NCBI RefSeq assembly: GCF_018446385.1
Contig: NC_055998.1
Location: 72,100,744-72,164,743 of the forward strand
Source: Zingiber officinale
Taxonomy: Eukaryota > Streptophyta > Magnoliopsida > Zingiberales > Zingiberaceae
Reading direction: 5' to 3'
Length of the DNA stretch: 64,000 nt
The position numbers were made by a program, and so were the translations under genes. This document shows positions 10,090 to 63,532 of this stretch, piece by piece. How positions within the stretch are numbered: position 1 is the first letter of the stretch; each line of letters starts with the position of its first letter. Below the pieces are notes generated by a model. That model ran no database searches. It was not told where the DNA came from and saw only the letters and a program-made list of their open reading frames with translations.

Positions 10090-11325
10090 CCCACCCAGTG
10101 GCTCGAGAGTCTAGAATTTGAAGGTGCAAGAGCATGTTCTCTTATAACCCGGCTGGTGGCTCGGGAGTTTGGAATTTGAAGGGCGAGAGCATTCTCTCTC
10201 ATAACCCATTTGGTGGCTCAGGAGTCTAGAATTTGAAGGAATGAGAGCATACTCGCTTATAACCCAGTCGAGGCTCGGGAGTCTGAAAGTTAAAGGCACG
10301 AGATCATGCTCACTTATAACCCAGCAGGTGGCTTGGGAGTCTAAAATTTAAAGGCGCGGGAGCATGCTCTCTTATAACCTGGTCGGTGGCTCGGGTGTCT
10401 AGAATTTAAAGGTGTGAGAGGCTGGTGGCTCAGAAGTTTCGAATTTGAAGGCACGAGAACATGCTCGCTTATAACCCTGTTGGTGGCTTGAGAGTATGGA
10501 ATTTGAAGGCACGAGAGATTGCTCGCTTATAACCTGGTCTATGGCTTAGGAGTCTGGAATTTAAAGGTGCGAGCGTATGCTCGCTTATAACCTGGCCGAT
10601 GGCTCAAGAGTCTAGAATTGGCTAGGACTTTTAAGATAAAATCGCCTGCATTTTCATTGAGTAAAAATATTTAAAGTACTACATTAAAACATTACAAGTG
10701 TACTCTTAAACCCTATAAGGCTGTAGATGGTTGACATTCTAAGGTCGATCTTAATTTTTCCCATCTGCGTCCTGGAGATAGTAGGAGCCTGAGATGAGCT
10801 TTTGTACCATCTTATATGGTCCTCCCCATTATGACTCTAGCTTGTTAACATCCTCAACCAGCTTGACCCACTTTCAGACCATGCTTGCTTATAACTCGAC
10901 CGGAGGCTCGGGAGTCTAGAATTTGAAGGCGCGAGAGCATGCTCACTTATAACCCAGCCGGTGGCTTGGGAGTCTAGAATTTAAAGGTGTGAGAGCATGC
11001 TCGCTTATAACCTGGTCGGTGGCTCAAGAGTCTAAATTTAAAGGTGCAAGAGTATGCTCACTTATAACATGGTCAATGGCTCGAGAGTCTGGAATTTAAA
11101 GATGCGATAATATGTTTGCTTATAACCCTGCCAGTGGTTCAAGAGTTTAGAATGTGAAGGCACGAGAACATGCTCACTTATAACCCTGTCGGTGGCTTGG
11201 GAGTCTGGAATTTAAAGGCGAGAGAGCATACTCGCTTATAACCCGGCCAGTGGCTTGAGAGTCTAGAATTTAAAGGCGCGAGAGCATGCTCGCTTATAAC
11301 CCAGCCGGTGGCTCAGGATTCTGGA
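10090..11325. repeat. ~59-bp minisatellite in two blocks, with the intervening unit duplicated
   Basis: Units of about 55-60 bp carry ggctcgggagtctggaattt followed by gagagcatgctcgcttataa. Block 1 spans about 10090-10612 (roughly 9 units) and block 2 about 10885-11325 (roughly 8 units). The spacer 10613-10884 is a diverged copy of 11326-11598, which is the end of integrase plus downstream sequence. So a segment of roughly 710 bp (spacer plus array) was tandemly duplicated. Hypervariable tandem repeats in the 3' untranslated region are known from plant Tat/Ogre elements. Confidence 0.85.
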
Positions 11326-11459
11326 ATTGGTTAGGATTTTCTGAGATAAAATCGCATGCATTTTCATCGAGTAAAAAAATATTTAAAGTATTACATCAAA
11401 ACATTATAAGCGTATTCTTAAGCCCTATAAGGCTGTAGATGGCTGGCACTTCAAAGTCG

Positions 11460-12740
11460 CTTTAAATTTTTCCCATCCACGTCCTAGAGATAGTATGAGC
11501 CCGAGGTAAGTTTTTGCACCACCTTATATGATCCTCCTCACTATGGCTCCAGCTTGTTAACATTCCCAATTGGCTTGATCCACTTCCAGACCAGATCGTC
11601 CATCTGAAAAATTTGGATATAGCCCTTCTGTTATAGTTTTGCCTCATCCTTTGGCAGTATGCCATTAACCGAGTTGTCACCTTGTCTCTTACTTCTTCTA
11701 TCAAATCGAGCTCCATAAGGCGTTGGCTGACATTGCCCTCGTCATACAACTACCTTCGATCAGATTCTAGCACAATCTTTACTATGACCACTACTTCCCC
11801 ACCATAAACCAGTTGAAAAGGGGTTATACCTGTCGCTTCTCGGGGGTTTGTATGATATGTCTACAGTACACTGGGTATCTCATCGACCCAGCTTCCTCCA
11901 ACATAGTCTAATTTGGTTTTAAGTCCTTTGATGATGTCTCTATTCGTCACATCTACCTAGATGTTACTCTATGGGTAAGCCACAGATGTGAAGGCTTGTG
12001 TGATACCATAGCTCGAACATCATTCTTGGATTTTTCTACCCTAGAATTGTCTTCCATTATCTGAAACCAATTAGTGTGGAATTCTGAACATGAAAATAAT
12101 ATGTTGTCATAAGAATTTAATAACCATCTGCTCCGTTATCTTGGCTAATAGCTTGAAATCCACCCATTTTGAAATATAATCCACTTCCACTAGAAAGAAT
12201 CTTTTCTGGGCAGGTGCTAAGGGAAAAGACTCCACTATATTCATACCCCACTGATCGAATGAACACGAAACACTGGAGGTTTTTAGCAACTCCATTAGGT
12301 GGTACGAGATATTCTGATGCTTTTGACAAGATAAATAGGTTTTTACTAATTGAGTTGCATCTGCCTATAGATTGGGCCAAAAATACCTGGCTAATAATAT
12401 TTTCCGAGTGAGAGATCGACTGCCAACATGACTTCCACAGGAACCTTGATGCACTTCCTATAAAATGTATTGCACATCGTCCGGTCTGATGCATTTGACT
12501 AAAGGACATGAGAAAGATCGTTTATAAAGATGATTTTTGATCATAGTGAACTGACCGACTCTTTTCTTGATCATGCATGCTTGCCCTCCCTCTACTGGTA
12601 AGACACCTTGCTGTAGAAATAAAATAATTAGTGTTCTCTAATCACTCTACAATTCAAGGTTATCCTATCATTTAATGTAAGCTGCTAATAGTGTTTGTTC
12701 TACAAACTTATCCAAGGTCCATGGACCTATAGAGGAAGTT
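11460..12740 (-). pseudogene. Tat-1 integrase, broken
   Basis: Integrase inserts the cDNA into host DNA. On the minus strand the H2C2 zinc-finger part is seen near 12400-12620 (a CRPDDVQYIL stretch). The catalytic core starts near 12295 with FDQWGMNIVE and VDYISKWVDF, and the LVSDNG motif is near 12050. The C-terminal part at 11650-11749 has LDLIEEVRDK and YNRR. Stops and frame changes split it into at least three pieces (12117-12509, 12107-12295, 11462-11749). It follows RNaseH directly, as in Gypsy pol. Confidence 0.75.
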
Positions 12741-13526: not shown

Positions 13527-14902
13527 TGTAGGATCAATGTGTGCTAAGGGGGGAGGGGGTGAATAACATTCGTGGCTTTTTTCACTCATTTCGAAAAACA
13601 CAGAATAACATAGCGGAAGATAGAAAGAGATGAGGAGCAATGCTAACAGGGTTTCTTTTACTTGGTTCGGAGTCTGTAACGACTCCTACTCCAAGGCCCA
13701 CAATTGTTTATCGCTTTCGGTGGGAAATCACTAATAGTTCAACAAAGATTACAAACTTGAAGTACATCAGCAATATAATAAAGTTACTGACAACAATAGA
13801 AATAAAGTCGTTCGTAGATTGTCAGAGCAGAGTAGAAGAAAGCAGCAGTTGTTCATTCTTAATCTTAGAAAAAATATCTTGTCGAAGCAACTGGTTGAGC
13901 CCTCCTTAAATAGCCAAGCTAGACTTGATCCAGATCCACTGATCTCGAGATCAGGTTTGACTCATCGCTGATCGGTCGATCGATCCCAATGTTTCATCTT
14001 CCCATCCAGATTCAGCTTTGAATGAGTCTTCATTCAGTCGACCGATCCTGCCATTCAGTTGACCGATCTTGCTATCCTTATCTGGTTTGATCTGATCAAC
14101 CTAGTCTAATCTCGATCACCACATATCCATTGTTCAATATATCGACCTCGAGGTTAGGTTGACCGATCCAGAGGTTCAGTTGACCGATCAAAGCTGAAAC
14201 TAACCTTACAAAAGTGTTAGTCTCCTACAAAATAGAGTTAGAATACTAGAAAATAATAAATCAATATAAAAGATAACTTTTGACAGTCTTCGGATTGTCT
14301 GGTTTTGATTTTAGGATTTCCTGAAAATCGTAGGTCGAATTGACGCCTACTGTTCCCTCTTTGGGGAACACATCCTTGCCTACTCCTCTCAGAAGAATTT
14401 ACCTTTTTCTAGACTGGTCCTCTAGACCAACTGGAATTTTGCTCAGTATCTGAGACTTTAAGACTTCATGCTGAAGGTCCGCTCCACGACCCATCCAGAC
14501 TTTCACCTGGTCCGCGACCACCAAGATTTTCACCTAGAGTCCCCAACTCTAGGATTTCCCCAAAGTTCTCGACCCACCAAGACTTCGCCTTTGCCTAACT
14601 GCAGTTAGGACTTTCCACAACCTAGGGTTACCACCCCTAGGACCTAGGGCTACCACCCCTAGGACCTAGGGCTACCTCCCCCTAGAGTTTCCATAACCTA
14701 GGGTTACTACCCCCTATGACCTAGGGTTACTTCCCCCTAGGATTTTCCACCTGCTTAGAATCCACTAGGAATTTTACCTAAGAACACTTAGAACTTTCCT
14801 GTAAGCTCAACCACACTTGTTAGACAACAAGTAACATTAATTTTAAACCCTTTTCCATAATCAAAACTTAGGTTCGATCGTCTAGTGCTCCCTGCACCAA
14901 TA
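13527..14902 (-). mobile_element. Family-5 solo LTR in Tat-1 pol (1.38 kb)
   Basis: Bounded in plus sense by tgtaggatca and gcaccaata (terminal aata from aaca), with ggcag at 13522-13526 and ggcat at 14903-14907 as a one-mismatch 5-bp target duplication. Removing it joins RT to RNaseH in the usual Gypsy order. No internal region or second LTR is present. It shares the G-run start and the paired gtcgacc/gttgacc palindromes with the family-5 copy at 36937-38380. A TATA-like tatttaag lies near 13903-13913 (minus sense). A CCTAGG-rich minisatellite-like stretch (acctagggttacc types) lies at about 14620-14745. Confidence 0.8.
13903..14190 (-). promoter_or_regulatory. Family-5 LTR promoter region with palindrome pairs
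   Basis: Upstream of the TATA-like site (minus sense), copies of gtcgaccgatc or gttgaccgatc start at 14037 and 14058 and again at 14158 and 14179: two pairs, each spaced exactly 21 bp. A weaker copy is at 13975. The same 21-bp spacing occurs in the other family-5 LTR, although the sequences have diverged. Confidence 0.6.
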
Positions 14903-28288: not shown

Positions 28289-29619
28289 TATTAGATCAAG
28301 TCACATGTGAAGGGGGGGGGGGGGGTGAATCATGTGGTTTTGAAAAACTTATCTTTTTCATTTTATAAAACAAAGTTCATAGCAGAAAATTAAGAAAGTG
28401 AAATAGAAAAAAAAAGTAAAAGAGCACATGTTTGATTTTACTTGCTTTAGAGCCTTCAGTGACTCCTACTTCAAGACCCAGGTCCCATGGACCTATCGAT
28501 GGGTAATACACTAAAATACCTCTTCCGGTACATTCAGAAGAGGAAATTGAGTACAAGAGAATTCAGAACAAGTGTAACATACTGTACTTGTCCTTTTCCA
28601 ATAATTAAGTACAAAAATGAAAAGATTACCAAACATTCTTTTAATATGGTCGGCTTAAGCTCAGTGTTTGGGCAACTTTATAATAGTAGATGAGTGTAGC
28701 AGCATCACAACAGAGTTGTAGCAGGAAGCCGGAGCATTCGGAAGTCTGATCGAAAGCGCAGATGTTCGTATGAGTGTTGTCTTTGATGGCTTAGGTGAGC
28801 ACCCCTTATATTGAGCATGGAAGGAACCTTCAAAGGCCTTAAAGGCACCTCCAATGTGACAATTCTGATCCTGAACAGCTCGGTCCTTATCTTTGACAAA
28901 TTCTAAACTTTATCTTATGGAAGGCGCCTTCCATGAACTGAAGGCGCCTTCTATGAATAGTATCAAGATGCCTTCAGTGCTTGAAGGCGCCTTCCATCTC
29001 CTTAAGGGCACCTTGAGTACTGTTCACCCGAGGATTTTTGTGATTTTCTTACCCTATAAAGTGTGCTAGTCCAATAAATCAATAATAACCTGCAAGACAA
29101 GTGTTAGCACAACAATATTGAGTAGTAATTAGACCCTGTCTCTCCGAGACCAAGATCTAGTCAAGGTCTCAGTTTAGGGGTCTAAAATGGGTTTAGAGTT
29201 TATCTAAACTAGACTGATGCCTACTGTCCCTCAACCAGGATGCGCCCTCATCGAGTCACTCTCCTCCAGGGACTTACCTTACTTACCAACTTGTAATCGG
29301 CTGACTAGCCTCTTGACCCACCAGGTCTTCATGCCAGTTGTCAGGTTCGCAGACCTAATTGGACTTTTGCCAGCTGTCAGGTCCCGAGAACCCAGCCATA
29401 CTTTCTTCTAGATATCAAGTCAGCCCATTGACCTATCTAGAATTCACACCAGTTATCTGATCCCATGGAGCTAGCTAGATTTCAGCATGATGTCAGGTCC
29501 TTCAGACCCATCAATTCCTGCATGCTTGGTAAAGTACTCAGATCATAAATACACCTAACTTAACTCATTTATCATTCATCAAAACCTAAGTTAGACCGTC
29601 ACTGCAAACTGCACCAACA
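28289..29619 (-). mobile_element. Family-2 copy 2, 3' LTR (1.33 kb)
   Basis: In minus sense it starts TGTTGGTGCAGTTTGCAGTG after the polypurine tract and ends at 28289 with a decayed GATCTAATA (from GATCCAACA). A 14-base G run at 28312-28325 (plus sense) lies near the 3' end, as in other family-2 LTRs. The promoter region is around 28801-29015. Confidence 0.8.
28801..29015 (-). promoter_or_regulatory. Family-2 LTR promoter region with GGCGCC palindrome pairs
   Basis: A TATA-like site (plus cttatatt, 28805-28812) is followed upstream, in minus sense, by gaaggaaccttc and aaaggcacctcc with cores at 28823 and 28844 (21 bp). Next come gaaggcgccttc cores at 28923 and 28943 (20 bp), 100 bp from the first pair. 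Further copies are at about 28967, 28986 and 29007. Copies lacking CpG are explained by C-to-T decay. Confidence 0.65.
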
Positions 29620-32435: not shown

Positions 32436-32556
32436 TGTTGAGGTTTTGGAGGGGAAAAGACAAAGACGTAGTGGAAAATGACCGTGGAAGGTGCCTTCTC
32501 ACTGCCAAAATTATGAACAGAGCATCGCTCTATTTGCTGGAAAAAATGAAATTGAA

Positions 32557-32692
32557 GGCACCTTCAACCTCATTGAAGGTGCCTTCAAGGTGTTATGGAA
32601 GGCGCCTTCAACCGACTGAAGGCGCCTTCAGTCGGTTGGGGAGGGAAATATCCCACCCTTGCGAGGGCGCCTCCAATTTACTAAGAGGCGCC
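32557..32692 (-). promoter_or_regulatory. Internal palindrome pairs upstream of the family-2 second ORF
   Basis: GAAGGCGCCTTC-type palindromes have cores at 32557/32578 (21 bp), 32601/32621 (20 bp) and 32666/32687 (21 bp), ending 120 bp before the ORF start at 32435 in minus sense. The same motif lies at 26678/26699 (21 bp) upstream of the ORF in copy 1. They match the LTR promoter pairs, which suggests a separate promoter or an LTR-derived piece. I see no clear TATA box here. Confidence 0.5.
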
Positions 32693-32704
32693 TTCGGTGG
32701 TGCA

Positions 32705-36936: not shown

Positions 36937-38380
36937 TGATAGATCGGATGCGAGCGATAGAGGGGGGGTGAATATCGCTTTCTTTAAAACTTATCTTTTT
37001 CTTTTCAATCAGAATTGTGTAGCGGAAAATAAGAAAAGGGACAAAGTTGTTTACTTCGTTCAGAGTCTAGCTCGACTCCTACTCGAAGGCCCGCGATCCT
37101 TGACCGCTCCGATGGACAAAACACTATAGCCCTTCTTTCTGAAATCCTCGAAAAGAAGTGGATCGTACAGATACAAAGATGTAAGATAGTAACACTCCTA
37201 CTATCTTACATGAAATTAAGTGTAGTACAGAATAAGATATACCGACAATAGTAGTTGTAAGTCGAAGCTCGGTCGGCACTATCAGACAAAGTGGCTTGCA
37301 GAGTTGATGAAGATTTGTAGCACGAGCAGCTTGTAGAAGAGCACTTGAGTCAATCAGAAGTTCTCTCTTCGCCTCAGACTTCGAGCCTCCTTTTATAGGT
37401 ATACTGGACGTTCGGTCGACCGATCCTCCTATTCGGTCGACTGAACACGCTCCCTTCCTTCCTGGCTGGAGTCTGACGCTGGCTCAATATCTGCATTAAT
37501 TGGTCTTTAATGGTTCGGTCGATCGATCCATCTTTTCGGTCGACCGAACAAGCTCTTTCCCTGTTCGTCGAAATCTGCCGAGATCTTTCTTTAATGAGGC
37601 TTTAATATTGATTAGATCGGTCGACCGATCCCTGGGTTCGGTCGACCGATCTGCTTCTTTTCCTTTACTGCTGATCGGTGTTGATGAACTGGCAGTGCTG
37701 AGTCATTAAGGTTTGGTCGACCGATCTTACTGTTCTGTCGACCGATCATGCTTTGACCAGACTCTGGTCTGATCTGTTCTGAATTGATAATTTCTTTAAG
37801 TTGACCTGATTCGGTCGACCGATCATCCCGTTTGGTCGACCGATCGGACAGAACTTGTAAAACAGTGTTAAGCAAAACATCTTGCAAAACAGAGATTAGC
37901 AAAGTAATATAAAATGCATGAGTAGTATGAAAGACAGTAGAACTGTCTTGATCTCAACTTGGAAACCTTCCCGGTTTCTTTAGTTGGATCAGCGACCTAA
38001 GGTTGTTCCCTTTGGGAACCCGACCTCACTGTCGCTCCTCCAATTTTTTACCTCAACCTACCTGCCAAACTTAGATCCTTCAGATCTAGTTTGGACTTTT
38101 CACTTAGCCTTGACCGGCTCCCCAGGACTTTTCTCTTGATCTTCGGTCCTCCAGACCTCTCGATCACATTGCCAAGCTTCTGGTCCCCTCGACCTACTTG
38201 GACTTGTACCTGAGTTCCATGATCTGCTAAGATTTCTCCTGCCTAGCCTCCAACTAGGTCTTTCATGGTTGAGTAAATATCCTGCATACTTAGTCAACTT
38301 GTTAGATCATAATAAGACTTAACTTGAACCTTTGACAACATCAAAACTTAGGTTTGATTCTGGTGCAACTTGCACCAACA
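36937..38380 (-). mobile_element. Family-5 LTR inside the Athila-like element (1.44 kb)
   Basis: Plus-sense termini are tgatagatcggatgc and gcaccaaca. A G run followed by tgaat lies near the left end, as in families 2 and 4. No internal region is attached. The flanks attag and aataa match at only three of five bases, so a target duplication is not convincing. Positions 37661-38380 form most of an 807-bp segment repeated at 43286-44092. Confidence 0.7.
37389..37849 (-). promoter_or_regulatory. Family-5 LTR promoter: TATA box and five palindrome pairs
   Basis: In minus sense a TATAAAAGG box lies at 37389-37398. Upstream of it are five pairs of TCGGTCGACCGA-type palindromes, with gtcg cores at 37415/37436, 37518/37539, 37620/37641, 37716/37737 and 37814/37835. 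Each pair is spaced exactly 21 bp, and pairs start 103, 102, 96 and 98 bp apart. The nearest palindrome is about 13 bp from the TATA box. Confidence 0.75.
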
Positions 38381-38467
38381 AATAACTCGACCACCTCATT
38401 AAATTCATCAAAATCTCGCTCTTGGAGGGGTAAGATATTTCAACACCCTCCTACCAAGGGCTCTTAT
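37661..38467. repeat. 807-bp direct repeat flanking the chromovirus fragment, left copy
   Basis: Identical by eye to 43286-44092 (offset 5625). It covers part of the family-5 LTR and 87 bp of Athila-like sequence up to cttat, where the chromovirus LTR begins. The right copy ends at the same cttat and then continues into Athila-like sequence. Confidence 0.9.
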
Positions 38468-41400
38468 TGTCACGCCCCAGGTAGTCCCTGTCCGAAGAAA
38501 TTTCGGCAGCATCTCCCCTGTACGGCGGACAATATGAAGCTCAGTATACATATATCTCCATACCTCGGCCACACACGGCCGGAACAATACAATACAATAA
38601 GAACACACCACGCAGTTTATATCAACATTCACATAACTCAACATATAATCAATCCACGCAGTATAAAAAGGAAAGACGATATAGAATCTCGAAGATATAT
38701 GTAAACATCCTACTCCACTACATCGAAGAAAACCAAATCCACGAAGTAACGGAAATACAACCGCAGCGGAAAACAATAGTAGTAAACCCGAATGTTCAAT
38801 GTCCACAATACAAACCCACAATACAAGTATATAAGATGCAAAAGCAAAATATAATCCGACAACGAAAATCCTCGCGATAATGGGGCTAGCGACTGGAATA
38901 TCTCCCGACGGCCTCAACCTGAAAAATAGTAACAACGGGGTGAGTTCAAAGAACTCAGCAGGTAATCCAATAGATATGTACAGCAATATATAACTACCAG
39001 TAATATCCTAAGGTACAGTCCCCTAACTATAAGATCAATAGTACAGTTCTCTAACCATACAACCTACGGTACAGTTTCCTAACAGTATAACAGATATGCA
39101 TAGCTGAAATAAACTGTAATAACCAGCAACAGGCATAAAGTACAGTCTATAGCAAGAAGAATAAGAAATGCATAACTGAAGTAAACTGTACTCACTGCGA
39201 GGCTTGGGCGATTGTTCGTGGACATACAGATAAAGATAGTCGGATCGAATAAGCATGTATCACTGATGATCGTCAATCGTACGCAATCACCCAGTCGTCG
39301 TCATCCAATACGCAACAATCACAATAAATGCAATATGTGTATGATGCCGTATACGACACGGTCACCCACGCTAGTCAGTCTCTGTGATGGCGAGGCCGAG
39401 TAGGTAGGTGTGACACCGCTCTGTCGTCACTACGATGGTGGCCGAGTGGGCGGGATCTTTGTCGAGTACACCTATCCTCCTACCTCAAACATAGTGAGGC
39501 AACTCCCGGTACACGATGACGGGAGGGATCTCACTGCTACCACGCTGCAATCACACTACCCACGGACCCGGAGCACTACTGAGCAGCCATACACACCCTG
39601 GTGCTGTGCCACTACCCACGCAGTGGTCGCGTTGTGTGCAGCCCCGAGTACCGACGAGCTCAGCAATAATGGGTCGTCGATCGCCCAAGACGCAATCATG
39701 CGGGATGGTGCGATGCTACTGTCATACCGAACATAGCCTCCTCCATATATGTGTGTGCCCAAAAGGTAAACGCATATATATAATCATGATATAAACAGCA
39801 TAAACCCAAAGACATCACATATAACAATGATGTAAGTATCATGAATCCAAGAGCATGTATCACACATGTAAAGCAACTAATCCAGTAGAGTAGAGCACTA
39901 TAGATATGCATCTCTATGAACATATATATACATGGCAAGAGGTAAATATCCAATCATGAAGTAAAGCAACTAACAGATGAAGCATGTGATAGGTATCAAC
40001 TAGCTAAGACCAGGGAAGAAATAAATCTACCACCTATCACTAGTAACTATATATAAACTATACATATCATAAGACAGTATCAAAAGATAAGTCAAAGGGT
40101 ACCCGCCTCAAATAGAAGGTACAATCCCAAATCCGAAGTCAACGTCGAGACGCCTGTCTCGAATCAGAATCCTGTGTCAAACAACATATATATTTTATTT
40201 AGCTAAATCCAAATGAATAGCTAAATAAAATCCCTAATACTAAATTAGGGCAAAACCCTAATCAACACAATAACACCTTACCTAGTTAAATCTAATGGTC
40301 AATTAGGGTTAGTTACCTAACCTCTAATCACCAATTAGATTAGAAATCTAAACTTAGATTAAATCCAATAGTTGACTAGGGTTAATTGTCTTAACCCTAA
40401 TCATTCCATTAGTTTAATCTAAGTAAATAAATCTAATCACAATCAACAACTAGTAATCCAAAAAAAATACCTAATTCAACATGATCATAACCCTAGTTCA
40501 TCCACACTAAGATCCATCATCTAAAACAAAGAACAAAACCTACACATCATATATCAATTATCTGTTTCTTACCTCAATCTCAGCTACTGGATGCTGGAAT
40601 CAAGTAAGAACCTCACTGGAAATCAATCCCGTGACCTAAATCATTGATCCACAGCAGCCCAATGCTTCCTTTAATCAAGAACAAGGAACCTCCCAACCTA
40701 CAGAACACCTCTATCACAGCAAAGAAGGAAACATCCAAGAACTGATCTGTGGATTACAGCAAGTAATTGGATCCGATCTCTCCCTCCTAGTTCAGAACCG
40801 AAAGATATCACCAAAACGAAGAATTCATCGAAATCCTTGAATCTACAGAATTCCCCATGTTACCTCAACTGATCATTTCCAGATGGATCACCTACTCCGC
40901 TCCGTGAACCAGCATACCAGGGATTCCCCTGACTCTCAATCAACAACAACAAGGAAGGGATCCAAGACCTGACCTGCGATCGCCAACAATTAGAGAGGAA
41001 ACGAGCAAGAATTGGGAAAGAAGACTCGATCTAGGGCACAAATCAAAGAACAGACAAGAGGAAGGATCGTCACTTACCCTCAAAGCCCTAATTATCTCTT
41101 CACGCCGACGATCAAATCTGACTCGATTCCAGTGGCGTCGGCAGTCGGCGTGAGGGAGGAGAGGGAAGGCCTACCGATGGAAGACGATGCAAGATCTAGC
41201 TCTCACCGTGCCCTAGCCATCGATCGTCGACACTCGGCCACAGAAATCACCAAAGCAGCGACCCCTCGGTCGAATACAACTTGGATTCCGTCGAGCTCCG
41301 GTGACTTCCTCCTCAGGCAACACCGACAATCGTCGAAGGTGCTCCTCCGGTCTCGGCGCCAAGTCGTCCGCGAGAGAGAATCGATGGTGAGGAGAAGTGA

Positions 41401-41798: not shown

Positions 41799-43245
41799 TC
41801 AAGTAAAAAGATGAGGGTATCGAGCTCGGATCGTATCCTCCAGCTCCCATGTAGTCTCCTCGTCAAAATGATACTGCCATCCGACTTTAACCAGTCGGAC
41901 AGTCTTGTTCCGCAGCTGACGCTCTCTATGGTCCAGAATCCGCACCGGAACCTCCTCGTAAGTAACATCAGGCTGAATAGGAACAGATATATCTGACAGA
42001 ACATGTGCCGGATCGGATACGTATCTCCTCAGTGTAGATACATGGAATACATCATGAATGCCAGCTAGAGATGGTGGTAGCGCCAGACGGTAAGCTACTG
42101 CTCCAATCCTCTCCAAGATCTGGAATGGTCCAATATATCGAGGAGCTAGCTTACCTCGGAGACCAAATCTCTTCACCCCTTTCGTGGGTGAACTCTAAGG
42201 AATACATGATCACCAATGGAGAACTCCAGGGGTCTCCGTCTCTGATCAGCATAACTCTTCTGACGGTCCTGAGCCTCAGACATCCTCCGCCTAATAGTGC
42301 GAACTAACTCTGCATCCTGCAGAGCTCTCTGAGGTCCTATCAGCTGGGCCTCCCCAACCTCTTCCCAGAGGATGGGTGTCCGACAAGGCCTACCATACAA
42401 CGCCTCAAACGGTGCCATCTGGATAGCCGAATGATAGCTGTTGTTGTAGGCGAACTCCACTAATGGCAGGTGGTCCTCCCAACTGCCTCCGAAGTCCATG
42501 ACACAAGATCTCAGCAAGTCCTCCAATGTCTGAATAGTCCGCTCTGACTGCCCATCTGTCTGCGGATGGAATGCCGTACTGAAACGGAGCTGTGTGCTGC
42601 AGACTCTGCCAGAATCGGGACGTGAACCGTGGGTCTCTATCTGATATGATGCTCAAAGGAACACCATGTAATCTAATAATCTCACGACAGTATAACTCAG
42701 CTAATCGATCCAGAGAATCAGTCTTCCGGATCGCTAAAAAGTGTGTGGATTTGGTTAATCGGTCAACGATTACCCAAATCGCATCATGACCTCGTCGAGT
42801 CCTAGGCAAACCAACCACGAAGTCCATAGTAATGTGCTCCCACTTCCACTCGGGAATAGGGATCCTCTGAAGTAATCCAGCAGGTCTCTGGTGCTCAGCC
42901 TTCACCTGCTGACAAACAAGACATCTAGCTACAAAATCTGCGATGTCTTTCTTCATGCCATTCCACCAATAGGAACGTCTCAAATCGCGATACATACGAG
43001 TCCCACCTGGGTGGATAGCAAATCTAGAACGATGAGCCTCCTGAAGTAACTCCTCCATGACCGGGTGAGACTGAGGTACACATAATCTGCCTCGGAAATA
43101 AATACTACCCTCAGCATCTCGTGTAAACTCGGTCTGCTGTCCGGAAGCTATCTGGCTGCTAATGAACTGTAAATGCTGATCTCCGGCCTGGGCCTCTCGA
43201 ATCCTCATCCTGATCGACGACTGAGCAACCATGGTAACAAGAATA
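41799..43245 (-). pseudogene. Chromovirus integrase with chromodomain, 5'-truncated and frameshifted
   Basis: The H2C2 zinc finger (HRSRFAIHPGGTRMY, then CLVCQQVK) lies at about 42900-43035. The catalytic core has MDFVVGLP and IISDRDPRFTS. A frameshift near 42595 moves the frame; it continues with LEDLLRSCVMDFGGSWEDHL and FEALYGRPCRTP. A GPF-type module (PRYIGPFQILERIG) and a C-terminal chromodomain-like segment (VKVGWQYHFDEETTWELED) end at 41799. Reverse transcriptase, RNaseH and gag are absent: the element stops at about 43245 in filler sequence. Confidence 0.85.
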
Positions 43246-43288
43246 CCCTGCTCTGTCCGTCCCTGCTCTGTCCGTCCCTGCTCTGTCC
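43246..43288. repeat. 15-bp filler repeat at the truncation junction
   Basis: ccctgctctgtccgt occurs at 43246-43260 and 43261-43275, with a 13-base third copy at 43276-43288 running into the repeated flank through shared tccttta. It sits exactly between the truncated chromovirus pol and the right copy of the 807-bp repeat. Confidence 0.85.
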
Positions 43289-44092
43289 TTTACTGCTGAT
43301 CGGTGTTGATGAACTGGCAGTGCTGAGTCATTAAGGTTTGGTCGACCGATCTTACTGTTCTGTCGACCGATCATGCTTTGACCAGACTCTGGTCTGATCT
43401 GTTCTGAATTGATAATTTCTTTAAGTTGACCTGATTCGGTCGACCGATCATCCCGTTTGGTCGACCGATCGGACAGAACTTGTAAAACAGTGTTAAGCAA
43501 AACATCTTGCAAAACAGAGATTAGCAAAGTAATATAAAATGCATGAGTAGTATGAAAGACAGTAGAACTGTCTTGATCTCAACTTGGAAACCTTCCCGGT
43601 TTCTTTAGTTGGATCAGCGACCTAAGGTTGTTCCCTTTGGGAACCCGACCTCACTGTCGCTCCTCCAATTTTTTACCTCAACCTACCTGCCAAACTTAGA
43701 TCCTTCAGATCTAGTTTGGACTTTTCACTTAGCCTTGACCGGCTCCCCAGGACTTTTCTCTTGATCTTCGGTCCTCCAGACCTCTCGATCACATTGCCAA
43801 GCTTCTGGTCCCCTCGACCTACTTGGACTTGTACCTGAGTTCCATGATCTGCTAAGATTTCTCCTGCCTAGCCTCCAACTAGGTCTTTCATGGTTGAGTA
43901 AATATCCTGCATACTTAGTCAACTTGTTAGATCATAATAAGACTTAACTTGAACCTTTGACAACATCAAAACTTAGGTTTGATTCTGGTGCAACTTGCAC
44001 CAACAAATAACTCGACCACCTCATTAAATTCATCAAAATCTCGCTCTTGGAGGGGTAAGATATTTCAACACCCTCCTACCAAGGGCTCTTAT
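43286..44092. repeat. 807-bp direct repeat, right copy
   Basis: A copy of 37661-38467, with family-5 LTR sequence to 44005 and Athila-like sequence after that. No difference from the left copy was noticed by eye, so it is either recent or an assembly artefact. It contains two of the five palindrome pairs (cores near 43341/43362 and 43439/43460). Confidence 0.9.
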
Positions 44093-45324
44093 TATGGAGA
44101 GAGCTTTCATCAAAGGAGCTATAGAGTAAAGTATAACTCTCTCCATCTTTATCTTCTTTGAAGTTTTTTCAGGTGGTCGAAGACGGTTCAGTCTGAGCTT
44201 CCAAATATAGGCCCCATGAAAATCTGCATACCCAAAAGGAAAACATACCCCTCCCAAGCATGCTATATTAGATAGAACTAGAATCTTATTAAGATGAACT
44301 GAGTATGGATCACAAATTGAATCACATCCAACAAAATCTACTATTGATACATCTATGAAATTTTCCAAAAGATCACAAAAGATACTAACCTTGCTTTGCT
44401 GAGAGATACCTGAAAGTTCTAAACATGTGGATGTGACTTCTGAATCCTGTATTAGCTCTAGCTCTGGCTCAAGCGGTGGTGTCTCTAAAAGTGGTGATTT
44501 TTGGGGCTTTGCTTCTATTTCATAAGTCCCTACATATTGGTCCACAACATGTTCTATCCTTGCAACTCTCATAATCTCAAAATGTTGTGTAGATAAAGGA
44601 GGTGATTCTTGATTGTTGCTTCCACAACACAACTCCCTACACTTCCTTTCATAACATCATCATCAACACAAGCATCAAAAAATAAACCAACATCAATATC
44701 CTCAGTGGGAGAATCATCTATAGGAGGATCACTGACTTCATTTGCAGTTTTAAGTTGATCTACCACATCACATTCATCATCTGAAAATTCAATTTCATCA
44801 TAACACCCTGTAAACCCAGAAGGTAAATCTGAAAACTTGTTATCCACTGCATTATCATCACAATCCTCATCTGAAGAGTCTTCATCTTCATATACATCCA
44901 AAAATCTACACTCAACCATATTAGTGTCACAGAATTTGCCAAAGTCTTCGTTTTCATTGACCCTCACTAGCCTTTGTGGAAAAGGAACCTTTAGTGAAGG
45001 TATTGGGAAAGGTACTTCCTTTTCCCCATATTCCCTTTGAGCTTGCGGAGGAGGTCCAACTTGCTTATCTAGTGTTGATGTGATCAACCATTGAGGGAAA
45101 GGTACTTGCAGCCTTTGGGAACTTCCTAGAGTAATGGAACTGAGTTCTTGTGGTCTTCTACTGTTCATCTCCTCAATTCTGTACAAATCCTTTTTCAGAA
45201 GTTCTTCATGATTCTTGCCACTTCTCAACTTAAAATTATTACACTGTTCACTAGACACTGTCTGTGTAGGAGAGGGATCTTGTTTGAACCATTTTGAAAC
45301 AATGCTATCAATCTTTGCCCCCAA
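44093..45324 (-). pseudogene. Athila-like gag-downstream ORF, frameshifted
   Basis: On the minus strand, 45324-44569 encodes 251 residues with KLRSGKNHEELLKKDLYRIEE near the start and a long acidic tail (EDEDSSDEDCDDNAVD). A frameshift near 44620 links it to 44632-44093, with EIEAKPQKSPLLETPPLEPE, WKLRLNRLRPPEKTSKK and ALGRRVLKYLTPP. The PPLEP stretch recalls the linker before protease/RT in Athila pol, but no protease or RT follows. I assign it no function beyond an extended gag polyprotein. Confidence 0.55.
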
Positions 45325-45554: not shown

Positions 45555-46109
45555 CTAACAAACACTTATCTGAGAAAGAATTCCCCTATAGAATATGTGC
45601 AAGGTTAGCCACTTCTCCAAACCATGACGAGGGCACTGTCTTTGTAGACTCTTGAATCTGTCCCATGCTTCAAATAATGTTTCTCCATATGCCTGAGTAA
45701 AATTTGTGATGCAATTCCTAATACAAATTGTTTTACTTAGAGGGAAAAAGTGATTCAGAAATTGCTTCTCCAATGGTTCCCAACTTGTGATGCTTTGAGG
45801 ACGAATAGAATATAGTCAACTCCTTGCTTTATCCTTAATACTGAAAGGAAATGTCATCAATCGAACTGCATCCGCTGAGACACCCTCACAGTTCACCATA
45901 TCACAAAGCTCTAGAAATGTCTCAAGGTGCAGGTAAGGACTTTCTGATGCTTCTCCTTCAAATTTGTGACCTTGTATCATGAAGATTAACTCTGACTCTA
46001 GTTGAAAACTTTCTGTTTCAATGTGAGGCTGCACAATGGGAGATAAAAATCTTGCAGAAATGGGTGCAGAGAAATCTCTTAAGGACTTGCTTGACATGTT
46101 AGTGCTCAT
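45555..46109 (-). pseudogene. Athila-like gag core
   Basis: Starts MSTNMSSKSLRDFSAP at 46109, followed by HLETFLELCDMVNCEGVSAD and FPFSIKDKARS. After a stop near 45816, a second piece has EKQFLNHFFPLSKTICIRN and YGETLFEAWDRFKSLQRQCP. This is the retrotransposon gag fold (PF03732 type) as in Athila and Tat elements. Confidence 0.8.
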
Positions 46110-46312: not shown

Positions 46313-46337
46313 GTCCCCCGCAACGACGGTAAAAACT
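46313..46337 (-). other. Athila-like primer-binding region
   Basis: In minus sense the run AGTTTTTACCGTCGTTGCG is a decayed form of the TTTGGCGCCGTTGCCGGGG region used by Athila elements. It directly follows the LTR end at 46338. Confidence 0.6.
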
Positions 46338-48188
46338 TGTTACGATTCCGCAAGTGCACGGATTCATCGTCAGTAATATAAAAGACTGTCGAACCACAGA
46401 GACTGTTGATTAAGCACTAGAGATGTCGCAAAGTAAGTTATCTAGATGGTCGAAAGTTGGCTTTGACGCTTGCAAACTAACAAGAGTGATTGAAGAGAGA
46501 AAGAGAAGGATGAGAGAATCAATCTTAGAGGGAATTGAGCTTTGGGAAATGGATTCTAGGATTTCGGTTTCATTGTGGTGGAACATGATGTATCATGTTC
46601 TATCTTTTCCTCATTGTCAATCGACATGCATTCGTCGAAAGTTAAAGCTGCTATCCTTAAGCACTAAACAGAGAAGATCCCTGTGAAATCCTGTTACGGT
46701 TAACCCCTGTCACTAGGGCGTCTCGGTAGATCACAAGAATGCAAATCCAATCGGTGTCATTAAGGATAGAGATAATGGTTTAATTCGGTCTCTTACTTCC
46801 TTATGGAGAAGTTGTCTCTCCTTTCAAGGGAGTATCCTAGATGCCCGTGAATGGGTTACCCTTGTCACTAGGGCCCCTCGGGTGTACGATCTAAGATCTT
46901 CTCTTTACGAAATTAGCAATTCCTACACAATCGATCAGTATGATGAGATAATCTCAGCAAGTCTCATTCATATCAAATAGAAACAAAGCAAGTAAAATCA
47001 TCCAATAAGTAAAGGCATAAACATGAGTCTTACATCAAACTCTATCCAAAACTACTCCCTACGTACATAGAAAAGGAGATCTACTCCATTGTGAGGGAAG
47101 AACAACCCCAAAACATGAAGTAAAGCATACTTACAACCCTTGATGTGAGAAGAAGGGGAAGAAGAGATGCTTGCCAAGGTTTTCGATGTCTTGGGGATGC
47201 CTCCTTGCTCTGGAGATGAACGAAACGTCAAGGGATGGCGGTGGATGAAGCTCTAGGGTTTCCCCTGAAGGGGAGAACTCTTTCCCAAGGAGAGGAACGA
47301 AGTCTCGAACCAAAGATGATACCAAGAATAGGGTTCTTGACCCTTTTATAGGCTAGGGCACGGGCACCGCACGACCCGTGTCACGACCGTGCGAGATTCA
47401 CACGACCAACACTTTCCTCCCTTCGGGTTGAGTGGCACGGTCGTGCGAGATCGCACGGCCGTGCCTTCCTTCTACTCTGGTCGTGCCTTCCTTTGCCTCC
47501 GGCCACTCCGCACAGCCGTGCGAATTGGCACGGTCGTGTCTCTTTTCTTCTCTGGTTACATCGCACGACCATATAAATTGACACAGTCATGAATTCCTTC
47601 TGCACTGGTTACACCGCACGGCTGTGCGAATTGACACGATCGTGCCTTCCTTCTATACTGGCCGTGCAGAATTGTATCAAGGCCATGTAGATCATTTTAG
47701 CACATCTTAACGTGGTATTCTTGAGTTGAGGTCTTCATCAAAGTTGTATATATTGAAGTTATCTACAAATTGGTATAAAGAACAGCCCAAAACTCCAACC
47801 AAGTACAAAGTTATAGTCATTTTACTTTTGGTCTGCAGTGCTAAAAATTCCACACAGCCTTCACACGGCCATGTGACATTCACACGGCCTCAAGCCCCCC
47901 ACACAGCCTTTGCATGGCCGTGTGGTCTCCGCACGGCCAAAACTTGGAAGAACTTAGTTTTCATATGCCCGTGACACTCTGGAAGCTCTAGACTTCATTT
48001 AAGCTCTGTTTTTGCTCCAAATCATGTCCTATCAATCAAAACAATCAAAGAGTAGATCTCCGAACAAAATATAATGGAAGTATGAGATTATAATGAAATA
48101 GGGTACAATAAACATAGATTATGCTAATGAAATGCAAGTAGATGTGCGTCAAAGCATGCATAAATGATCATAAGATCTACGCACATCA
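46338..48188 (-). mobile_element. Athila-like 5' LTR (1.85 kb)
   Basis: In minus sense it starts TGATGTGCGTAGATC at 48188 and ends GGAATCGTAACA at 46338 before the primer region. Termini and length suit plant Athila LTRs. It carries a palindrome-rich promoter region at 47341-47645 and further cacacggcc motifs at 47850-47940. No conserved coding frame is present. Confidence 0.75.
47341..47645 (-). promoter_or_regulatory. Athila-like LTR promoter: TATA box and GCACGGCCGTGC pairs
   Basis: TATAAAAGGG (minus sense) lies at 47341-47350. Upstream, palindromes of the form GCACGGYCGTGC start at 47435/47453, 47510/47528, 47563/47581 and 47616/47634. All four pairs are spaced 18 bp, and pairs start 75, 53 and 53 bp apart. 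A denser group nearer the TATA box (47369, 47381, 47400) has irregular spacing. Confidence 0.7.
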
Positions 48189-48300: not shown

Positions 48301-48967
48301 GAACCAATAGAAAGCATGATCCTATAGATCTAGATAACGAATATCTCACAAATACACTAGGTCTACCTTGATTGTATATTTAAAAAATTTAGAATTGTGT
48401 GAGATGTGTAGGCCTTTTGCCTGGACTTCAAATACTTATATCAGAGAATCAACATAAGTCCGGGTGAAAAATACAAAAGTACATTGATCAAGTTAAGTAG
48501 TCCTTTTTCAGTAAATTTCTAACTAGACATTATTACTTAATTTGACTAACCAAGTGAACATTGTTATCTTCTTATAGTTAGTAACTAAAGGTTAGACATT
48601 AAAGGAAAATTTTTAGATGAATATTTTTAAAGTAATATCAGGTTCTGGGGAGGATATTTGAAAACTGCTTTCCAAGGGTCATATTTCAAAGCCTTGCAAA
48701 AATTTTTCACTTTGTTCTGAAAAAATATTTTGAAAATGTTTCCAAAACTAATGTGCTTATTTTTTTAATAAATGCTAAAAGGAGAGGGTTAGGGTTTAAG
48801 TAAGAAAAACTACAGAAAATCTAAAAAACTTAACCCTAAAAATAATCAAGAGAATAAAATTTACCTATTTTATTTTTCTCTTAAAGTCATTTCTTTTACT
48901 ATAGGTGTTTGTATATTTTTTTTTATAACTTTAACCCAGGTTGTCATTGCATCAAAAAGGGGGAGAT
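48301..48967 (+). mobile_element. Family-2 copy 3, end of interior and polypurine tract
   Basis: Plus-sense match to the tail of copy 2 (minus 31070-30700), with the ctcacaaatacact, gtgtgagatgtgtagg and taaccaagtgaacat blocks. It ends in AAAAAGGGGGAGAT (48954-48967), the polypurine tract, directly before an LTR. No open frame is present. Confidence 0.75.
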
Positions 48968-49649: not shown

Positions 49650-49840
49650 GGTGCCTTCCATGAGACTGATGATGCCTTGAGGTGGGTGATGAAAGGCACC
49701 TTCGGGAGCTTGGAAGGCGCCTTCGGTCGGATAAAATTAGACTTCATCGACAATAGGAAGCAAGCTATTCAGGATAAAAGTTTTTCTATGGAAGGCGCCT
49801 TCAGTGCTATGGAAGGCACCTTCAACCCTCTTTAAAAGGG
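49650..49840 (+). promoter_or_regulatory. Family-2 copy 3 LTR promoter: three palindrome pairs and TATA-like box
   Basis: Cores of GAAGGCGCCTTC-type palindromes lie at 49650/49671, 49695/49716 and 49794/49815. All three pairs are spaced 21 bp, and the last two pairs are 99 bp apart. CTTTAAAAGGG at 49830-49840 follows about 10 bp after the last palindrome and is the likely TATA element. Confidence 0.7.
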
Positions 49841-59513: not shown

Positions 59514-60437
59514 TGTTGGAACCCTAAGCTTATTTTGATGTGATCAACAAGTTAAGTTAGGTCATGTCATGTTTTAACCTTGTGTCTAAGTGTGCAGGAG
59601 CTTAGGAGCACAGGGAGTCGAGCAAAAGACGTAGCTAGCGAGAAGGACGACACGGGAGAGAGCCGACGGGGTTGGTGCGTCTAAGGTACGAGGTGCTGCG
59701 GAAGAGTACGCGGGCGGACGAGAAGGAGGCGCCAACGTTTTTGAGGGACGAGAAGTTAGAGCGGAAGGTTGCTCGAGAAGGCTGAAATTAAGTTTAGGTG
59801 AGCCTTATTTCGATTGGCTGAAATCACACAAGAGAGCAGAGCTGGAGAGAAAGACCCGGACCGAGGCGAGCAGCACCAGAGTAGAGTACCCGGACCAAAA
59901 GTCAACTTTGTTGACTTTACTAGTCCGGGCGCTCAGAACCATTTTGAGTGCCCAGACCAGTCCGGGCGCCTGGAGCCATTCCGAGCGCCCGAAATTAAGT
60001 TTTGACCAGGATCAAGTCAAACGTAATCTGTTGCGAAGGGGATAAAATTTTATCCCCTCCCAGGCACCTGGACACCTTCCAGGCGCCCCGACCAAGGCTA
60101 TAAATACAACCTTGGTCTAGAAGTTTTTCATCAATTCAAGAATTGTGTACTCAACACTTGTGAGCTTCATTTCTAGTTTAGCTTCTTCATTTTCTACGCG
60201 TCACTGCTGTAAGAAGGTTCTCTGCCTAAAGGATATATTCTAGTGCGCGATTCATTCCTTGGATTAACAACCTCCCCAGTTGTAACCAAGTAAAAATACT
60301 TATGCCTCTTCTTTTATTTTCTTTTTGTTTATTTAATCTATTTTATGCAAGTGTAATTTTGAAAGATCGAGAAGGGTTGTGTTTTGTTTTTTACAAGGCT
60401 ATTCAACCCCCTTCTAGTTGGCCAACACGATCCAATA
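59514..60437 (+). mobile_element. Family-4 5' LTR (924 bp)
   Basis: Starts TGTTGGAACCC and ends GATCCAATA (from AACA) before the primer site. A C run and aaccccctt lie near the 3' end, as in families 2 and 5. It carries one more palindrome pair than the 3' LTR, which accounts for most of the 33-bp length difference. Confidence 0.9.
59925..60106 (+). promoter_or_regulatory. Family-4 5' LTR promoter: palindrome pairs and TATA box
   Basis: GGCGCC-type palindrome cores start at 59928/59947, 59965/59984 and 60063/60082, each pair spaced 19 bp. The last two pairs are 98 bp apart. TATAAATA at 60099-60106 follows about 12 bp after the last palindrome. In the 3' LTR the pairs are at 63058/63077 and 63156/63175, also 19 bp, with TATAAATA at 63192-63199. 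Confidence 0.75.
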
Positions 60438-60439
60438 AG

Positions 60440-60494: not shown

Positions 60495-61931
60495 ATGGTC
60501 GGACCGAGCATATACCCGCCGAAGTTCAAAGGAGAATTCGTTACCTAAAAAAAGTGAATGTAGGTATTTTTTAAAACGGATTTTGAGTTATTATTAATTA
60601 TGGAATTCAGTCTTATAGAACCAGAAGGTAAAGAGAAATATCAGTGGACAAAAAAGGAGTAGGCCGACTACGTGGCAAACGGTAAAGCAGAGTACCATCT
60701 GTTGAGCATTCTTCCGTCACAAGAAGTCAACCAAATCGGCAACTACGACTCTATGAAGGAACTTTGGGAGAAGTTCCTTGAGCTACATGAAGGGGTGTTC
60801 GAAGCCAAGATCGCAACACGGGATCTACTTCGCTACCAGCTCACTAACTTGCGACTTAGAGAAGATGAAACAACTACGCATCTGCACTCGCGAGTTAAAG
60901 AGCTTATCACCGAACTTTCGAATCTCGGAAAAAAGGTAAGTAACCGAGATTCACTAAGGTACACACTAAATTCTTTACCTAGAAATACGAAATGGGCATC
61001 ACTAGTAGATGCATTTTATATTTCTAAAGACTTAGAAAAAATTACTTTGGAAGAATTATTCTCGACATTTGAAGTGCATGAATCAAGATGTGTAGGTAAA
61101 AAGGAGTCCAATCACAACGTCGCCCTCAAAGCATCGAGAGACGAACCTGAGTTAGAGTCTTCTCTCGATGATGAGGAATTGGTTATGATGGTAAAACGTT
61201 TTAAGAAACTATGTAAGTCTAGAAATACTAACCATCCACAGGGTAGAAAGAAAAGGACGATCCGCTGCTACCACTGCAACAAAGAAGGGCACGTCAAGGA
61301 CAACTGCCCCAAGCTAAGGAACAAGGACAAAGACAAAGGTAAGAAGCCTGTCCAAAAGCGCAAGGTCTTAAAGGCGACGTGGGATGATACGTCGTCCGAA
61401 TCGAAAGTTGAGGCCTTCTCTGGACTTGTATTAATGTCAAGTCATCAAGATGATGACTGCGATTCAAGCTCTTCTGAAATGAGCATCGAGAGTATCGATG
61501 AACGGGGAGCTACGTCGGAAGAAAGCACCAGTTCAGGGGGAGACACGGATAACGAGATCGACAAGGTAAGTCAGGTATGATCTCTTCCTCCCGATAAATT
61601 ATTTAAGTTCGTTAAATTGTTAACAAAAGATTGATGGAAATTAGAAAAAGAAAATAAAAATTTTAAAGTAATTCTAGCTAAGTACTGCCCATTAGAAGAG
61701 TTAGAAAAATTAAAGTTAGAAAATGAAAATTTGAAAAGACAAATAGATTCTTTAAAAAATCATGCATGCTTCCATAATATAGATTTTAGAAAATACAATA
61801 ATTTAAATTGGTATTTTAGATATCACCAGGGAAAAATTAGAAATATTTCAAAAAGGTATGTCCCTAAGAAATATTTAGTTAATTCAGTAGGCTGGAACCT
61901 ATATTGGGTTCCAAAGTCTTGTTTAACTTGA
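60495..61931 (+). pseudogene. Family-4 gag, single frame with several stops
   Basis: Starts MVGPSIYPPKFKGEF at 60495. One frame continues to 61931 (about 479 codons) with stops at 60546, 60555, 60561, 60660, 61578 and 61632. The longest open part, after 60662, runs to 61577. It holds the UBN2-type core (SMKELWEKFLELHEGVFEAK and RDSLRYTLNSLPRNTKWASL), an intact CCHC knuckle CYHCNKEGHVKDNC near 61264-61308, an acidic Ser-rich part and a C-terminal coiled coil (LEKLKLENENLKRQ). It ends YVPKKYLVNSVGWNLYWVPK. No protease follows. Confidence 0.85.
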
Positions 61932-62641: not shown

Positions 62642-63532
62642 TACTGGAACCCCAAGGTTGTTTTGATGTGATCAACAAATTAAGTTAGGTCCTGTTATGT
62701 TTTAACCTTGTGTCTAAGTGTGCAGGAGCTTAGGAGCACAGGGAGTCGAGCAAAAGACGTAGCTAGCGAGAAGGACGGCACGGGAGAGACCCGACGAACT
62801 CGGTACGTCTGAGGTACGAGGTGCTGCGAAAGAGTATGCGGGCGGACGAGAAGGAGGCGCGCAACGTTTTCGAGGGGCGAGAAGTCTAAGCGGAAGGTTG
62901 CTCGATAAGGCCGAAAATTGGGTTCGGGTGAGCCTTATTTCGGCTGGCTGAAATCACCCAAGCGAGCAGAACCAGAGCGGAAGACCCAGATCGAGGTGAG
63001 TAGCACAGCAGCAGAGTACTCGGACCAAAAGTTTACTTTGTTGACTTTACTGGTCCGGGCGCTCGGAACTATTCCGGGCGCCCAAAATCAAGTTTTGACC
63101 AGGATCGCATCAAACGTGATCCGTTGCAAAGGGGATAAAATTTTATCCCCTCCCAGGCGCCTGAACCCCTTTCAGGTACCCCGACCAAGGCTATAAATAC
63201 AGCTTTGGTTTAGAAGCTTTTCATCAATTCAAGAATTGTGTACTCAACACTTGTGAGCTTTATTTCTAGTTTAGCTTTTTCATTTTCTGCGCTTCACTAC
63301 TGTAAGAGGCTTCTCCGCCTGAAGGAGATATTCTAGTGCATGATTCATTCCTTAGATTAACAACCTACTCAGTTGTAACCAAGAAAAAAATACTTGTGCC
63401 TCTTCTTTTAGTTTCTTTCTATTTATTTAATCTATTTTATGCAAGTGTTATTTTGAAAGATCGAGAAGGGCTGTGTTTTATTTTTTACAGGGCTATTCAA
63501 CCCCCCTTCTAGCCGGCCAACGTGATCCAACA
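62642..63532 (+). mobile_element. Family-4 3' LTR (891 bp)
   Basis: Starts TACTGGAACCCC (from TGTTGGAACCC) and ends GATCCAACA. It aligns with the 5' LTR throughout (gtgtgcaggagcttaggagc, ctcgagaaggctg and acttgtgagctt types) with many substitutions and one missing palindrome pair. Confidence 0.9.

Follow-up and report, generated by a model that had tools for sequence, protein, structure and literature searches.

Paired palindromes in four LTR families

Several LTR families at this locus carry short palindromes in pairs upstream of the TATA box, which raises the question of whether the arrangement has a fixed geometry, whether this geometry is common to the families, and what might read it. 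The locus is a stretch of 64,000 nucleotides from Zingiber officinale, referred to here as the window, taken from a genome of 3,090,333,446 bases (3.09 Gb) and crowded with nested LTR retrotransposons. An earlier note on this DNA had described four such arrangements, each of which is present at its place in the window; the roughly two-turn spacing that the families were said to share was not borne out, as the distance within pairs varies by family instead (21, 20–23, 19 and 18 bp for families 5, 2, 4 and an Athila-type family, respectively). The TATA box served throughout as a proxy for the transcription start. The features of family 5 are as follows:

37412–37843, minus strand: cis-region of the family 5 LTR with five TCGGTCGACCGA pairs (37412/37433, 37515/37536, 37617/37638, 37713/37734 and 37811/37832)
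37390–37397, minus strand: TATAAAAG of family 5, starting at 37397, with the proximal box centre 20 bp away
36961–36970, minus strand: CACCCCCCCT, polyC-rich, downstream within the LTR and resembling the Sirevirus integrase signal
43338–43468, minus strand: another family 5 fragment, carrying two pairs at 21 bp and lying within 808 bp that are identical to 37661–38468
13972–14187, plus strand: decayed family-5-type boxes, one single and two 21-bp pairs

Between 37389 and 37849 (minus strand) ten boxes, each with at most three mismatches, form five pairs of exactly 21 bp, as the earlier note had it; this count leaves out an additional match at 37519 that overlaps. At up to two mismatches, TCGGTCGACCGA has 19 matches in the window, whereas 100 shuffles gave 0.50 on average and 3 at most. 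The strand of the decayed boxes was assigned from a plus-strand TATAAAAG at 14265, which lies 83 bp past the last recognised box centre, so that the proximal pair is either missing or too decayed to be recognised. The direct repeat formed by 37661–38468 and 43286–44093 (808 bp, 100% identical, 5,625 bp apart) extends, as judged by eye, past the start of the family 5 LTR, and its ends are thus unlike LTR ends; it represents a recent duplication, gene conversion or an assembly artefact.

To follow the arrangement beyond the window, 20 copies were chosen from 100 listed TCGGTCGACCGA–TATAAAAG matches, giving 21 cis-regions together with the window copy. Selection guaranteed each chosen copy an exact box at most 30 bp from TATAAAAG, while the exact TATA distance, the remaining boxes and the box spacing are free of it. 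The 21 copies are related (median identity approximately 0.67; a pairwise value of 0.006 clearly reflects a failed alignment) and contain 178 boxes, compared with 0.65 on average and at most 3 in dinucleotide shuffling repeated 20 times. Measured directly in these LTRs, 74 of 86 close gaps are 21 bp. The pairs themselves are not evenly spaced at about 100 bp, as had been claimed: among 71 gaps between neighbouring boxes that exceed 40 bp, 68 fall at 57–104 bp (the others being 149, 162 and 229 bp), and the commonest single value accounts for only 12 of the 68. The nearest two boxes lie 20 and 41 bp from the TATA box in 18 of the 21 copies, and at 20/124, 14/51 and 14/34 bp in the remaining three. 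A comparison of variances was weak (within-pair standard deviation of 2.57 over 86 gaps against 3.31 expected from scaling), because five of the 86 gaps are outliers at 25–37 bp (25, 27 and 37 bp). Additionally, a 22-bp perfect palindrome, GGTCGACCGCGCGCGGTCGACC, was observed approximately 400–600 bp from family-5-type pairs at two of 50 listed places (C1:284969–284990 and C1:1660354–1660375).

Assignment of the families

A polyC-rich integrase signal has been described for Sireviruses (PMC2829016), and among the Sirevirus LTR/PBS marks sought in the window copy of family 5 only the polyC stretch was seen. One genomic copy, L085, carries both the 5' LTR/PBS junction CA/ATTGG-TATCAGAGC (ATTGGTATCAGAGC without mismatch at 52) and the polyC-rich integrase signal (a C10 run at 17). 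Two pieces of that copy (L085 and L086) display the copia order of gag_2, zinc knuckle and integrase before RVT_2, the rve match of 29.9 bits being under the curated cut-off of 32.6. Furthermore, family 5 shows the features by which Sirevirus repeated motif (RM) boxes are recognised, i.e. at least eight CGG–CCG palindromic boxes with a TATA box shortly after the cluster.

Family 2 is represented by the following features:

28820–28994, minus strand: GAAGGCGCCTTC boxes at spacings of 21, 79, 20, 24 and 19 bp
49692–49823, plus strand: boxes forming two 21-bp pairs, 99 bp apart, with the TATA-like TTTAAAAG next
32487–32695: further family-2-type boxes at spacings of 67, 21, 23, 20, 45 and 21 bp

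Its pairs were found as described previously, 28820/28841 at 21 bp, 28920/28940 at 20 bp, and 49692/49713 and 49791/49812 at 21 bp each, with 99–100 bp from pair to pair. The PPT/LTR junction is GGGGGAGATTGTTGG, exact at 48959 (plus strand) and with one mismatch, as GAGGGAGATTGTTGG, at 29628 (minus strand); family 2 thus displays the PPT followed by an AT/TG attachment site that is the rule for Sireviruses in PMC2829016. Its GAAGGCGCCTTC box differs from the RM boxes of that paper, and from those expected of a Sirevirus, in being without the CGG–CCG signature, to which the paper names one exception, Tnd-1. Families 2 and 5, which both bear marks of Sireviruses, are Sireviruses. A 30-bp perfect palindrome, CAACCGACTGAAGGCGCCTTCAGTCGGTTG, surrounds a family 2 box at 32609–32638.

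Two LTRs in the window belong to family 4:

59927–60089, plus strand: GGCGCC boxes with a 19-bp pair (59964/59983) and an extra box at 60081; TATAAATA at 60099
63057–63163, plus strand: second LTR with a 19-bp GGCGCC pair (63057/63076) and an extra box, CAGGCGCCTG, at 63154; TATAAATA at 63192

Here too the 19-bp pairs and the positions of TATAAATA agreed with the earlier description. The family (pair pattern GGGCGCCCN{2,32}GGGCGCCC) is known from the window and from a class of boxes 32 bp from the TATA box (10 of 100 listed AGGCGCCT rows, see below). A PBS-like AGTGGTATAAGAGC at 60438 (plus strand) has two mismatches in 14 positions to the Sirevirus PBS, and Retrotran_gag_2 and zf-CCHC domains are encoded downstream of the LTR at 60663–61580 (plus strand); a copia gag in this position is a Ty1/copia mark that is not specific to Sireviruses. 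Family 4 is probably a Sirevirus, its marks being weaker than those of families 2 and 5.

The last family is marked by the following features:

47381–47645, minus strand: LTR array of GCACGGCCGTGC boxes with pairs at 18 bp
47343–47350, minus strand: TATAAAAG, starting at 47350
46315–46331, minus strand: degenerate PBS, four mismatches in 17 positions to the Asp-tRNA-type motif
45555–45815, minus strand: Retrotrans_gag (PF03732, E 4.2e-14), a gypsy-type gag downstream of the LTR

The pairs 47435/47453, 47510/47528 and 47616/47634 are 18 bp each, in agreement with the earlier note. We take the degenerate PBS to resemble the Asp-tRNA type of Athila/Tat elements. Ten genomic loci were chosen from 100 listed CACGGCCGTG–TATA rows: the Asp-tRNA-type PBS was detected downstream of the boxes at up to three mismatches in two of them (background, one per 400,000 bases) and the LTR-end motif of the window, at the same threshold, in seven. 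Both are lacking in three loci, and at one locus, L097, a Met-type PBS 12-mer is present instead. With a degenerate and patchy PBS and a gypsy gag, the Athila label is likely, not certain, and the family is, on these sequence marks, probably an Athila-type Ty3/gypsy element. A chromovirus assignment, based on SH3_Tf2-1/Chromo and integrase domains at 41799–43289, was weighed but not kept, because the LTR at 47 kb has an Athila-like PBS and a gag of its own downstream. The region 41799–43289 (minus strand) itself encodes chromovirus-like Integrase_H2C2 and SH3_Tf2-1 domains, with rve and Chromo under their cut-offs, and its proximity to the Athila-type LTR and gag, with a family 5 fragment between, is a case of nested elements. 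Elsewhere in the window, 10270–11593 is a tandem array, often spaced at 58 bp, with GAGCATGCTC palindromes at 10364, 10939, 10997 and 11286.

Genome-wide spacing and TATA register

Counts of matches across the genome are lower bounds, and the pair places listed are the first on contig C1 and hence non-random, some sharing one LTR. The exact 12-mer TCGGTCGACCGA has at least 47,023 genomic matches against 23 for a reversed-pattern control. Pairs of GGTCGACC (gap 2–32) number at least 17,040 against 85 for the control and, among the matches listed, are spaced 21 bp centre to centre at 40 of 50 distinct places, the other ten being 14 (two), 17, 20 (two), 23, 25, 32, 34 and 40 bp. For the GGCGCC-type AGGCGCCT, at least 79,287 pairs were counted (control, 13), of which 23 of 50 listed are at 21 bp and 43 at 20–23 bp; for CACGGCCGTG there are at least 2,595 (control, 1), with 24 of 50 listed at 17–19 bp and 20 at 35–37 bp. 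A broad within-pair spacing in other copies of the same families would have spoken against the arrangement, and such breadth was seen neither in the listed matches nor in the fetched copies.

The register, also measured directly, is the distance from the box centre to the first T of TATAAAAG in 100 listed rows per box type. For family 5 it is 20 bp in 79 rows and 14 bp in nine, with 6, 12, 17, 19, 27 and 34 bp among the others (at least 566 forward and 516 reverse matches; control, 4 and 7). The AGGCGCCT rows, in which several LTRs are listed twice, are at 13 bp in 47 cases, at 32, 33 and 34 bp in 10, 12 and 27, and at 12–14 or 20 bp in four more (at least 2,526 and 2,118 matches; control, 7 and 4). 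In many of the rows at 34 and 32 bp a second, often imperfect box lies nearer the TATA box, 21 or 19 bp in; those with a 19-bp inner box are family-4-like, and many 33-bp rows are without an inner box. For CACGGCCGTG the register is 36 bp in 63 rows, 27 bp in 16, 37 bp in six and 26 bp in five (at least 242 and 246 matches; control, 1 and 0). The distances thus differ between families (13, 20, 27 and 36 bp) and no single geometry is common to them. The suggestion of a promoter module is supported in that box positions are fixed relative to the TATA box for all three box types among the listed genomic matches.

Pairing, helical phase and folding

The possibility that the pairs are remnants of a uniform array with decayed slots was rejected for two families: 75 empty slots in family 5 scored 3.64 of 12 matches against 4.21 for shuffled linkers, and 56 empty slots in the Athila-type family 3.45 of 10 against 3.88. 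As both values are below chance, pairing in these families is not that of a half-decayed uniform array. The empty slots of family 2 retain box remnants (10 slots, z 4.5), and this family is therefore less clearly paired and closer to a continuous 22-bp lattice.

The earlier note had further proposed that the pairs lie on one helix face. While 21–22 bp corresponds to approximately two turns, 19 bp amounts to 1.8 and 18 bp to 1.7. At distances above 26 bp, phasing at 10.5 bp was weak in family 5 (R 0.174; 95% of the jitter null, 0.076) and in the Athila-type family (0.203; 0.056) and somewhat stronger in family 2 (0.295; 0.111). The best periods are 19.6 bp (R 0.29) for family 5, 17.8 bp (R 0.72) for the Athila-type family and 11.0 or 22.3 bp (R 0.54 or 0.51) for family 2. 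A helix face as the general rule was rejected on these differing best periods and is not supported by the Athila-type lattice of approximately 17.8 bp or the 19 bp of family 4; at best, it fits the 21–22 bp families. A family-specific contact distance, not a common helical rule, is supported.

Alternatively, the boxes might act as RNA, with hairpins of the 3' LTR U3 feeding small-RNA production, a role already proposed for the palindromes of maize Sireviruses, and each pair forming the arms of a stem with a 9-nt loop. The family 5 region folds at −150.8 kcal/mol (z −5.45) and the Athila-type array at −135.8 (z −6.13), each better than 100 of 100 shuffles, and palindrome regions of maize Sireviruses are reported as hairpin-forming small-RNA hotspots (PMC5311732, PMC10760457). 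Any self-complementary set of boxes should, however, fold well, and the z-scores do not discriminate. A second line of evidence came from the flanks of family 2 (F2) boxes, taken from the window together with 20 randomly drawn 10-kb loci and 20 selected among AGGCGCCT pairs, many of the copies being related: inner complementarity, as in a hairpin, exceeds self-symmetry at the first flank position (0.74 over 81 pairs against 0.63 over 135 boxes) and at the second (0.54 against 0.47), while past the second position neither is in excess among the 81 pairs. This covariation is indecisive and, if anything, leans toward the hairpin. Conversely, a hairpin requires neither a fixed loop length nor a fixed distance to the TATA box. 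Moreover, the family 5 core widens over the 178 boxes to a 16-bp near-palindrome, G-A/T-TCGGTCGACCGA-A-C, that is asymmetric at precisely the position that would extend the stem, where A mostly stands opposite A (left A at position −1 in 127 of 178, right A at position 13 in 167 of 178). An RNA function is considered unlikely.

Linker variation and possible tandem duplication

The spacing could also be a relic of tandem duplication of a one-pair unit, passed on by descent without being selected for. The Athila-type array of the window lends itself to this reading, as it contains a 53-bp tandem unit identified by TRF over 47479–47661 (3.5 copies, 67% matches). The same unit is apparent at 20 loci fetched from the 50 listed CACGGCCGTG pair places, where adjacent gaps of up to 60 bp are 17–19 bp in 63 of 143 cases, 34–37 bp in 42 and 52–54 bp in 22; several loci alternate 18 and 35 bp, which add up to 53 bp, over hundreds of bases, although the regularity of the alternation is interrupted at some of the 20. 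Family 5 behaves otherwise. Among 40 of its 13-nt linkers 32 are distinct, and while the four outermost bases at either end are conserved (1.39–2.0 bits), positions 5–9 hold only 0.75, 0.24, 0.03, 0.17 and 0.41 bits. The linker middle, a direct observation, is thus nearly free in sequence while the length of the linker is kept, which argues against simple inheritance, as does the variation of the gaps between pairs, so that changes in length do happen where they are tolerated. Furthermore, TRF at score 30 detected no repeat of a pair unit within 37300–37900. On balance, descent by duplication appears improbable as the explanation of the spacing.

Probable methylation of the boxes

The boxes of the 21 family 5 cis-regions make up 25% of their length and contain 427 of their 612 CpGs. 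The spectrum of decay was read off the 178 boxes: transitions affect 93 of 1,068 CpG positions and 36 of 356 CCG positions against seven of 712 A/T positions, with 16, one and two transversions, respectively. Such an excess at CpG and CCG is the mark expected from cytosine methylation and deamination, and the rates, far above those at A/T, support the earlier suggestion that the boxes are a CpG-rich target of silencing. From this we infer methylation itself, and the spectrum would reflect germ-line CG and CHG methylation; it suggests methylated boxes, without showing that they are there to be methylated. That they exist primarily as CpG/CCG-dense targets for host recognition and silencing of the elements is, despite the concentration of CpGs and the transition excess, very improbable, since by reasoning an element that escapes should lose such a target, neither palindromy nor a fixed TATA spacing would be needed, and the decay spectrum suggests no more than that boxes become methylated.

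Discussion

The reading that we favour, and consider probable on present evidence, is that the boxes serve dimeric host factors as elements of an upstream promoter region, paired at a fixed distance, registered to the TATA box and methylated when the element is silenced. Each box would be the site of a two-fold symmetric, i.e. dimeric, host DNA-binding factor, and two boxes at the family-specific distance would constitute the working unit. With the first unit in a fixed register to the TATA box, bound dimers could make contact with one another and with the basal machinery; in a silenced element, the boxes would be methylated in the CG and CCG context and then decay. Here we infer the bound factor, the contact between dimers and the effect on transcription from the arrangement of the boxes.

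Boxes of this kind have precedents. Bousios et al. (2010, BMC Genomics 11:89; PMC2829016) described palindromic RM boxes that precede a conserved TATA box in 13 Sireviruses, among them the Vitis motif CGGTCGACCG, as well as CpG islands in Sirevirus LTRs that lie on average 37 bp from the TATA box; the RM was called specific to Sireviruses relative to classic retrotransposons, and the role of the palindromes was left to future promoter experiments. Later work in maize has pointed toward RNAs involved in silencing. The arrangement in ginger is alike in its high-copy, CpG-dense palindromic boxes upstream of a TATA box, the Vitis motif being the family 5 core. It differs in that pairs, a fixed length within pairs, variable linkers and a fixed box–TATA distance go unmentioned in the accessible text of that paper, and in that a comparable layout occurs here in a probable Athila-type Ty3/gypsy family. 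The earlier note knew of no description of the arrangement; for the Sirevirus families this does not stand, given the boxes before the TATA box and the family 5 core in Vitis, while no account of the fixed length of the pairs, of their register with the TATA box or of such boxes in an Athila-type family was found in the open-licence literature searched, as far as its texts were accessible (PMC6911290, PMC3601003, PMC11963269 and PMC11302176 among them), the 2016 Bousios study lying outside it. That study (Genome Res 26:226), as represented in PMC5311732 and PMC10760457, likewise concerns hairpin-forming palindrome clusters in the regulatory region of the LTR, yet draws on small-RNA data where the present analysis draws on sequence alone. 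The CpG islands in LTRs of Del (PMC4029996) are similar in being a CpG-dense LTR region that, within a gypsy lineage, has been discussed with respect to the TATA box; they belong to another lineage, and the stem ‘palindrom’ is absent from the accessible text. What may be new is the rigid geometry of the pairs, together with its occurrence in a group unrelated to the Sireviruses. The feature is real and strong, mostly of a known kind, with its geometry newly measured and one probable new host lineage.

A further reading, which we offer only tentatively, is that two unrelated LTR superfamilies arrived independently at one and the same composite core promoter, consisting of two dyad-symmetric boxes with CpG, a fixed distance specific to the family, a free linker and a TATA register. 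The comparable layout in the probable Athila-type element suggests that such boxes are not confined to Sireviruses. Returning to the boxes as promoter elements, the fixed pair length, variable linkers and TATA register argue for a DNA-bound module read by protein, and a probe to find the factor could be designed as two boxes with a fixed gap and any linker. Since box pairs within 40 bp are very abundant (at least 79,287 for AGGCGCCT and at least 17,040 for GGTCGACC), they constitute a large reservoir of putative binding sites. If the two superfamilies did build this promoter independently, the distance of 18, 19, 21 or 22 bp would be the fingerprint of each family's dimeric factor, and a whole class of host factors that transposons recruit would become readable from sequence alone.
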